Virus record (IMG/VR): IMGVR_UViG_3300040801_004034
Coordinates: 157,293-221,292 of that record
DNA length: 64,000 bases
Source: a virus
Reading direction: 5' to 3' (one strand)
Positions 18,850 through 46,894 of the stretch are shown here, one piece after another (positions within the stretch are counted from its first letter, which is position 1; every line of letters starts with the position of its first letter). The notes below the pieces were generated by a model. That model was not told where the DNA came from. It saw only the letters and a list, made by a program, of their open reading frames with translations, and did no database searches. The position numbers and the translations under genes are program-made.

Positions 18850-19056
18850 CTATTTAAATTGTGTATCCATGTTGATATTAAACGAACGGAAAACATAGTA
18901 TAGTGATCCGATGTAAAATATCACCCAAGTACTCCATGTTGCAAAAACGAAACTATTCCAAGGTAGTTCATATATCACACCTGTAGACCACAGGGTAGCA
19001 AAAAACATCAATATGGAAATGAATTTATGTTTATGTTTTAAAAATCGTCGTATCAT
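18850..19056 (-). CDS. Small membrane protein (two transmembrane segments)
   Basis: 68 residues: basic N-terminus, hydrophobic segments at about 12-30 and 36-56. GGAAC promoter at 19062-19078 with a TAATATA -10, overlapping the stop of the HNH gene. Confidence 0.6.
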   Translation of the reverse strand: MIRRFLKHKHKFISILMFFATLWSTGVIYELPWNSFVFATWSTWVIFYIGSLYYVFRSFNINMDTQFK

Positions 19057-45608: not shown

Positions 45609-45803
45609 TTAATCATCACCGAATAAGTTGTCATTGTCCCATTGATCACAAGCACGAACTAGATCAGTGATGACCTGCTCACGACCAACATTGAATGCGA
45701 AGCGAATGAATGTTAAACACCCATGATCATATACACCTGGTATGTTCCGGCCGCGTGCTTCAGCGAGTGATTCGATTGCTTGTTCGTATGTGATTGTTTT
45801 CAT
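45609..45803 (-). CDS. Hypothetical protein
   Basis: 64 residues starting at MKTITYEQAIESLAEARG. Promoter 45809-45825 (TATACTA). Last gene before the non-coding block. Confidence 0.65.
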   Translation of the reverse strand: MKTITYEQAIESLAEARGRNIPGVYDHGCLTFIRFAFNVGREQVITDLVRACDQWDNDNLFGDD

Positions 45804-45840
45804 GCCTCTAGTATAGAGAGGTTCCAATCCAGCTCAGAAC

Positions 45841-45857
45841 GGAACAGTGATATAATA
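45841..45857 (+). promoter_or_regulatory. Plus-strand GGAAC-N5-TATAATA promoter (ncRNA 1)
   Basis: GGAAC, spacer AGTGA, TATAATA, perfect consensus on the opposite strand to almost all others, with no open frame after it. Confidence 0.75.
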
Positions 45858-45862
45858 TGTGT

Positions 45863-45952
45863 ACAGCCAGATCGTGTCGTGAGCGAAATGCAGAGCCCGA
45901 GGGGTTGGCGAGAACTCCCTTGAGATATGGACCTGCTCCATCTCGGAAAAAA
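45863..45952 (+). ncRNA. Candidate small RNA 1
   Basis: About 90 nt between two plus-strand GGAAC promoters with no coding potential. Near the 3' end is a hairpin at 45922-45944 (ATGGA/TCCAT extended by GAG/CTC with a bulge). Start estimated from promoter spacing; end uncertain. Confidence 0.5.
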
Positions 45953-45969
45953 GGAACTGTGATATAATT
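45953..45969 (+). promoter_or_regulatory. Plus-strand GGAAC promoter (ncRNA 2)
   Basis: GGAAC, spacer TGTGA, TATAATT. The predicted start, about 45975, falls on the first base pairs of a closing stem. Confidence 0.75.
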
Positions 45970-45973
45970 GATG

Positions 45974-46254
45974 TGCTCCACCTACCTGCCTAACAAGGAT
46001 TGCCGGGATGGAAGGAGCAGAGATCTAGAGCTAGAGAGCAAACTACTCACCCTAGAGCGGAAAAGACCGGATGGGTTGCTAATGAAGAGTTTATAGGCCC
46101 CCACGCCTAGGCGGATCCAAACGGTCCAGCTATGCTTCTCTATAGAAATCCAGCTAAAAATGCTGGTAATGCGCCAGGTGCATAGGGAGTTAGAAGATTC
46201 TAACTTCAGGGTCGCCCGTCCGGATTCTCGCCCGGGTGAATTTACGCCCGTTTT
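45974..46254 (+). ncRNA. Candidate structured small RNA 2 with terminator
   Basis: About 280 nt, GC-richer than the genome. Stems: TGCTCC/GGAGCA (45974-45979 with 46014-46019), TAGGC/GCCTA (46094-46109), CCAGC/GCTGG (46150-46166), GTTAGA/TCTAAC (46189-46204), and a terminal CGGGTG-AATTTA-CGCCCG hairpin (46233-46250) followed by TTTT. No Rfam family recognised; not a tRNA. It may be a novel phage RNA. Confidence 0.6.
46233..46254 (+). terminator. Probable intrinsic terminator of ncRNA 2
   Basis: Six-bp GC-rich stem with a 6-nt loop, one G-T pair, then TTTT. Confidence 0.5.
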
Positions 46255-46313
46255 GCCGCTCTGTAACTCGTTGAGAGGGTATGAGTTTACAGCCGATCCT
46301 GGCACGTAGTTCT

Positions 46314-46330
46314 GGAACCATGATATACTA
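46314..46330 (+). promoter_or_regulatory. Plus-strand GGAAC promoter (ncRNA 3)
   Basis: GGAAC, spacer CATGA, TATACTA. No open frame follows. Confidence 0.65.
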
Positions 46331-46335
46331 GTGTT

Positions 46336-46461
46336 TTAATTTAACAGTGAGATAGCAGCCATGTAATAGATACACATAATAATATACGTAGACGTGCATA
46401 TGAAGCGCTATATATGAAGCGCTTAGGGCTCTCCGAGAGCCACGTAAGGATATATACGTGG
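46336..46461 (+). ncRNA. Candidate small RNA 3
   Basis: Downstream of the third plus-strand promoter. It holds a tandem 12-mer ATATGAAGCGCT (46398-46409 and 46412-46423), a perfect hairpin GGCTCT-CCG-AGAGCC (46427-46441), and CCACGTA/TACGTGG (46440-46461), which share two bases and so may be alternatives. The 3' end is not defined. Confidence 0.45.
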
Positions 46462-46717
46462 GGTAATAATAAATGCCCGGGATAGCCAGGACGAATCTGC
46501 TATTGCAAGCGGGCTCAACTTGTGCGTATAGCTAGAAAGGAACACCTGCGCGGGAGATCGCGAGAGAAAGTGCGGGAGAGATAGCGCGCAGTGCGATAAG
46601 AGAGCGAGCGCGGGTGGGAGGGAGAAAATTTGAGCGGGAGACCTAACCAAATACCCGCTTAGATTCTATCATTTCCGTGCCCTCATATACCTCTCCTCAC
46701 ATAACCCTCTTGACTTT
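46462..46717. other. Non-coding purine-rich, GC-rich stretch
   Basis: No gene seen. From about 46531 to 46640 the plus strand is almost all purine or GC with repeated GCGGGAG (46550, 46572, 46634) and GAGAG, quite unlike the AT-rich surroundings. It could be the tail of ncRNA 3, a packaging or recombination site, or foreign DNA. Confidence 0.4.
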
Positions 46718-46894
46718 TCATACCTTGCTTAGCCTCTCCTCTAGGCTATTGCTCACATCAACAACAACCCTGCATCCATCATTAGTAGATATTACATTCA
46801 CACTTATATGTTCATCCTCTATCTCCACACCATGATTTTTCATCATGCTCTTTACCCTCTCTTTTATACCGCTTTTAAAATTATCATCTACCAT
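46718..46894 (-). CDS. Small hypothetical protein with unusual codon use
   Basis: 58 residues: basic helix (KSGIKERVKSMMKNHG) then beta strands (HISVNVIST; CRVVVDV). It uses AGG, AGA and ATA freely, unlike neighbours. The frame extends upstream through Asn-rich tandem repeats without a start codon, so the ATG is chosen. No promoter recognised. Confidence 0.45.
   Translation of the reverse strand: MVDDNFKSGIKERVKSMMKNHGVEIEDEHISVNVISTNDGCRVVVDVSNSLEERLSKV

Follow-up and report, generated by a model that had tools for sequence, protein, structure and literature searches.

The stretch of DNA analysed here (the window: 64,000 nt, bases 157293-221292 of an IMG/VR virus record of 221,292 bases) carries on its plus strand what we read as a non-coding RNA island, a reading to which we assign a probability of about 0.8. 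Conservation of a short core in the first of its predicted RNAs (RNA1), promoters that are not followed by an ATG, and the lack of a match to any known family together point to a family of untranslated phage RNAs that has not yet been described. This family would be new and small, it fits no catalogued RNA family, and the fuller reading, of a non-coding island with a conserved core, is one that we hold with only slightly less confidence. An earlier note had proposed an undescribed RNA family for the whole locus; the locus indeed falls outside Rfam and RNA1 recurs in relatives, but the three RNAs do not make up one family. Two points were absent from that note, the leaderless genes behind the other promoters of the same type and the relatives of RNA1.

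The source appears to be a large marine virus of bacteria, and its portal protein fits a T4-like myovirus. This protein matches portal family PHROG 213, with the best matches among sequenced phages (about 30% identity) found in cyanophages and Vibrio phages, consistent with such an assignment, while the nearest contigs by portal protein are metagenomic (53-69%), except for one identical fragment. The 24 kb around the island have no DNA-level match in any sequenced phage, the SprT-like protein and the segment 49973-50608, used as queries, returned no useful relatives, and no sigma-70 region 2 gene was found in the phage. The 64-kb window encodes no tRNA. Outside it, in positions 120000-157292 of the same record (contig pieces L023 and L024), approximately 36 tRNA genes are present, all on the plus strand, along with a tmRNA (L024 671-1020, plus strand) and a GOLLD RNA that encloses a tRNA (L024 3026-3473, plus strand, approximately 143.0-143.5 kb of the record).

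The promoter of the island is real. The pattern GGAACN{5,7}TATAMT matches 47 times in the window, with the spacing of exactly 5 in every case, against 0.25 matches expected and at most 2 in any of 100 shuffles, and it matches 60 times in the whole 221-kb record, versus once for the reversed control. Forty-four of the window copies are on the minus strand (7381-62823) and three on the plus strand (45841, 45953, 46314); the claim that the latter are the sole plus-strand copies holds for the window, and 12 more lie elsewhere in this genome, at 122-143.5 kb. The promoter is frequent in related contigs, and it does not occur in six records of large phages that are less closely related (1.09 Mb total). 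In GTDB genomes the promoter followed by an ATG gave 27 scattered single matches in unrelated taxa, which is about chance by our own estimate, so no host is identified; this result agrees with the promoter being phage-specific. Among the titles and abstracts of open-licence literature, we found none matching this GGAAC/TATAAT class of phage promoters or leaderless phage promoters of such a class.

When the expected transcription start (+1) is placed 7 nt past the end of the -10 element, from which it is deduced, it falls exactly on the A of an ATG in most promoter copies. An ATG is found 4-8 nt past the -10 element in 39 of the 44 minus-strand promoters of the window versus none of the three plus-strand ones (Fisher P=0.0035), and the reading frames behind these 39 encode from 28 to 314 aa, suggesting that the ATG-bearing copies are promoters of leaderless mRNAs, which would form a regulon of leaderless early genes. 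Genome-wide, an ATG is positioned at the leaderless offset in 44 of the 60 promoters, and 9 of the 16 ATG-less promoters belong to three plus-strand triplets: one ahead of the tRNA array (124755/124838/125083), one ahead of tRNA and GOLLD (142401/142455/142597), and the one in the island. The promoters of the island thus resemble those of known RNA loci. The GGAAC-N5-TATAAT-N6-ATG layout also recurs in related contigs, at exactly that offset in 56 of 111 promoters, and in a related phage a glutamine riboswitch aptamer is found right behind a GGAAC promoter (L028 12928-13011, minus strand). In the phage in question, the segment L023 4861-5070 (approximately 124.86-125.07 kb), gene-free and positioned behind ATG-less promoters and before the tRNA array, folds better than 200 of 200 shuffles (z -2.86), ends in a 3' hairpin with T6, has no Rfam match, and is possibly another RNA gene.

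The island proper (Table 1) covers the gene-free block 45863-46660 on the plus strand, with its right edge at approximately 46660-46670, further to the right than the end at 46461 originally proposed.

Table 1. Features of the island and its neighbours, in positions of the window
Feature	Position	Strand	Basis or remark
Left neighbour, divergent, small leaderless early gene	45609..45827	-	No known family
Promoter P1, GGAACAGTGATATAAT	45841..45856	+	Expected +1 45863 (ACAGCC), no ATG there
RNA1, 5' part of the P1 transcript	45863..45952	+	Expected +1
RNA1 core, GAGCCCGAGGGGTTGGCGAGAACTCCC...	45890..45935	+	Alignment, sequence model, leave-one-out nhmmer
Promoter P2, GGAACTGTGATATAAT	45953..45968	+	Expected +1 45975
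RNA2	45975..46265	+	Expected +1, predicted fold; no homologue found
Hairpin CGGGUG-AAUUUA-CGCCCG, then TTTT	46233..46254	+	Terminator-like, weak
Promoter P3, GGAACCATGATATACT	46314..46329	+	Expected +1 46336
RNA3 (putative 3' end)	46336..46660	+	Local hairpins in 5' part (e.g. 46402-46424, 46426-46441); 3' part purine-/GC-rich
Shared tail	46586..46670	+	Pairwise alignments, leave-one-out nhmmer
Right neighbour, small ORF transcribed towards the island	46718..46894	-	No known family

As to the absence of genes in the three segments, and of conserved proteins in particular, the original description stands: reading frames of the block have no match at a meaningful E-value in Pfam or PHROGs, and the longest ATG-initiated one is of 49 aa, shorter than in most shuffles. 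The elevated GC content is likewise borne out, at 0.499 over 45863-46660, a value reached by none of 1265 windows of the same length, and the islands of the relatives also exceed their surroundings in GC. In blastn the island showed no similarity to any of 50,697 phage records, and searches with the island or its parts against phage and plasmid records produced nothing or short non-credible matches. No significant complementarity was found between the island RNAs and the leaderless mRNAs (0.075 for RNA1), and thus no sign of an antisense action on them. On the left, the divergent neighbour has a promoter of its own, GGAACCTCTCTATACT, at 45825-45810, with the ATG 6 nt past its -10 element. The neighbourhood is conserved as well: further to the left comes a minus-strand gene with an unusual mRNA leader, ATAGTTGCAATTAAGC, whose distance from the island is 3.1 kb in the window, against 2.1 kb in L286 and 0.9 kb in L163; this leader (window 42727, minus strand; L286 6990; L163 13934) is an exception to the leaderless rule. 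The scan for terminators lists none on the plus strand of the island, and as none is seen before P2, RNA1 may read through into RNA2.

The conserved element of the island is the RNA1 core, of 45-60 nt, positioned behind the same promoter type, within an island on the plus strand that adjoins leaderless genes on the minus strand. Eight copies are known, one in the window and seven in six related contigs (L286, L144, L163, L199, L162 and two in L183). The first relatives (L144, L162, L163) were detected via ATG-less promoters in related contigs, and pattern searches then added L183, L197/L286 and L199 as carriers; L162, L163 and L199 are truncated by contig ends. Leave-one-out profiles regain every copy in 1.03 Mb, ahead of all non-family matches, with the window copy recovered by nhmmer at E=7.7e-4 as the best non-seed match, and no copies beyond those known are found elsewhere in 1.05 Mb. 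Promoter plus core is not found in GTDB genomes, nor is the pattern GGAACNNTGATATAATNNNNNNGCTCC in viral contigs. Pattern matches in L194, L198 and L200 were dropped as resembling coding sequence, and most of the others were dropped as devoid of a promoter. The settings of the copies are alike: L286 possesses 29 minus-strand promoters versus 2 plus-strand ones, both in its island, as one-sided as the window (44 to 3), while the L183 island possesses three plus-strand promoters along with its two core copies. The folding of RNA1 is no better than that of shuffles, in the window region and in every relative. RNAalifold on the core predicts 4 pairs with one compensatory change, eight sequences being too few for such an analysis, and the core hairpin is seen in two registers that differ, and a CCN...GGN pattern may have produced it as a side effect. 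A Shine-Dalgarno decoy, as prompted by GGNGAGGAC, is not claimed, as the window copy matches it poorly.

The main rival reading is that the conservation of the core reflects coding, with the P1 transcript specifying a very short peptide (core P-E/K-G-L-x-R-T), and the synonymous bias weighs more heavily than anything else against an RNA. Seven of the copies align without gaps and in one frame their differences favour synonymous sites, with 51% of codon differences being synonymous versus 20% with permuted columns (P=0.004), in a test that ignores the kinship of the seven sequences. Frame 0 of the core reads EPEGLARTPLR, RPEGLARTPFR, RPEGLRRTTYR, SPEGLRRTPLR, KPKGLGRTGKK and EPKGLGRTV*, an ATG is present at the leaderless position in L199, and an in-frame ATG is present in L163. 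However, in the window, L286 and L144 the expected transcript offers this frame no ATG, GTG or TTG to start from, the window ATG at 45857 is upstream of the expected +1, and at +1 the copies in L183 and L162 carry ATA. Nor is the far end of the frame constant: it stops early in L144 and later in L163 and L286, and stays open further in the others, and the peptide has no match in PHROGs or Pfam. We consider a coding origin of the conservation rather unlikely.

RNA2 is a different case. As the earlier note had it, this RNA starts at a closing stem, with the expected +1 on the first base of the GCUCC/GGAGC stem that closes a 5' hairpin (45975-46018), and in the predicted fold a multibranched domain follows (46053-46263), with a helix of 10 bp (46067-46076/46214-46223). 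Its folding z of -3.03 was matched by none of 200 shuffles; with 20 shuffles z is -3.14, and 3 of 52 control windows from the same genome fold as well. The fold is thus stable, yet not exceptional for this genome, and folding alone is no proof of an RNA gene. The GC hairpin with T4 at the 3' end is real, with its pairs predicted at P=0.99, but as a terminator it is weak and ambiguous: the terminator scan omits it, its U4 may alternatively pair with AAAA at 46061-46064 (P=0.25), and an adjoining helix (46053-46060/46256-46263, P=0.97) would carry the folded domain beyond the T4. The sequence model of RNA2 recovers only itself, and neither pairwise nor blastn searches reveal a relative; one match of 19 of 20 positions in a related contig is inside a capsid-like gene and was taken as chance. 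Relatives are thus found for two parts of the block alone, the RNA1 core and the tail at its 3' end. This spotty conservation, along with the islands varying greatly in length and content, and the case of L154, which at the equivalent position has a plus-strand promoter but no core, would be expected of a non-functional remnant, in which promoters left from gene loss or duplication produce useless transcripts. Against it, the core and the promoter persist in divergent relatives while the middle of the island changes, and high GC is kept, and we regard such a remnant as quite unlikely.

The folding of RNA3 is not significant (z -1.14), and the islands of L286, L183 and L144 also fold at chance level. 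These three share with the window the tail at the 3' end. It includes a GC-rich arm GCGCGGGTG (46608-46616), able to pair with CACCTGCGC (46543-46551), an A-tract (46616-46632) and then a hairpin (46632-46660). When left out in turn, the tail copies reach E=3e-5 (L183), 0.009 (L286), 4.2 (window) and 9.9 (L144), and with a value of 4.2 the membership of the window copy rests on position and pairwise similarity. A further copy is possible in L154 (18848-18889), whose promoter without a core is at 18955. The islands of the relatives extend over approximately 190-300 nt; in the window approximately 600 nt (RNA2 and the first part of RNA3) are situated between the core and the tail. Read on the minus strand, the tail presents a hairpin followed by AAATTTT, making it a possible terminator of leftward transcripts. 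This feature also bears on the idea that the island serves a plus-strand gene further to the right, the direction in which its promoters face, as its leader or regulatory region: a possible terminator for opposing transcripts sits in the tail, the flanking genes with leaderless promoters, left and right, are on the minus strand, and the plus-strand reading frames to the right are short, leaving a leader function very improbable.

Comparisons with known RNA families were negative. The window has no match in Rfam 15, including GOLLD and ROOL, at the gathering threshold and none credible at the E-value threshold, as the proposal of an undescribed RNA predicted, and the relatives' islands are also negative, L144 even at a relaxed threshold; neither ARAGORN nor Rfam detects tRNA or tmRNA in the island. 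The real GOLLD of the same genome (RF02032), the positive control, scores 179 bits. GOLLD forms RNA cages, with many members longer than 800 nt (PMC12286853), and, like the island, it is a phage-borne untranslated RNA on the plus strand with three ATG-less GGAAC promoters ahead. Unlike GOLLD, the island has no sequence or covariance match to that family, its conserved part amounts to 45-60 nt and a tail, and it is not located by tRNA genes, the usual though not universal site of GOLLD and ROOL, the tRNA array being approximately 60-80 kb away. It is therefore extremely improbable that the block is a diverged GOLLD, ROOL or other RNA of the large ornate kind known from phages, as might be suggested by its size of approximately 800 nt and by this phage already having GOLLD and a tRNA array; the block is also split by internal promoters and the relatives' islands are much shorter. 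Closer in kind, and in kind alone, are the abundant non-coding RNA of the Vibrio phage ICP1 (PMC7567579) and the lncRNAs of the Staphylococcus phage K (PMC9241854), both detected by RNA-seq in gene-free regions and of unknown function; these belong to other phages. The leaderless early genes of the same phage have promoters identical to those of the island in type and spacing, and the island differs from them in having no ATG at +1 and no long reading frame behind its three promoters.

As to how the non-coding island may work, its RNAs would be made from the phage's own GGAAC-N5-TATAAT promoters, on the strand opposite to the leaderless genes and presumably at the stage at which these are expressed, and they would need to be both produced and stable. 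The core, situated 5' in the first transcript, would be the active part, recognised by a protein or ribonucleoprotein of the phage or the host, for which it may serve as a decoy or scaffold, and additional promoters or core copies would raise its dose. RNA2 may be a lineage-specific addition, and the tail would stop leftward transcription coming from the right. The decoy or scaffold mode of action is a tentative and somewhat doubtful suggestion. A bolder version, which we find unlikely, would have these RNAs as non-coding members of the leaderless-mRNA regulon, whose purine-rich core binds the host translation or RNA-based defence machinery, favouring leaderless messages.

In an infected cell the most abundant transcripts can be phage RNAs without a known function, as in ICP1 (PMC7567579), and few phage RNA families of this kind offer relatives for comparison. 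The marine T4-like group does offer a conserved core and a defined promoter for which the first transcribed base is predicted, and one and the same regulon presents a natural contrast between coding promoters, with ATG at +1, and non-coding ones. With this core and this contrast, expression and function become directly testable, and the ATG-less promoters provide a rule for finding untranslated RNAs in such phages by sequence alone.
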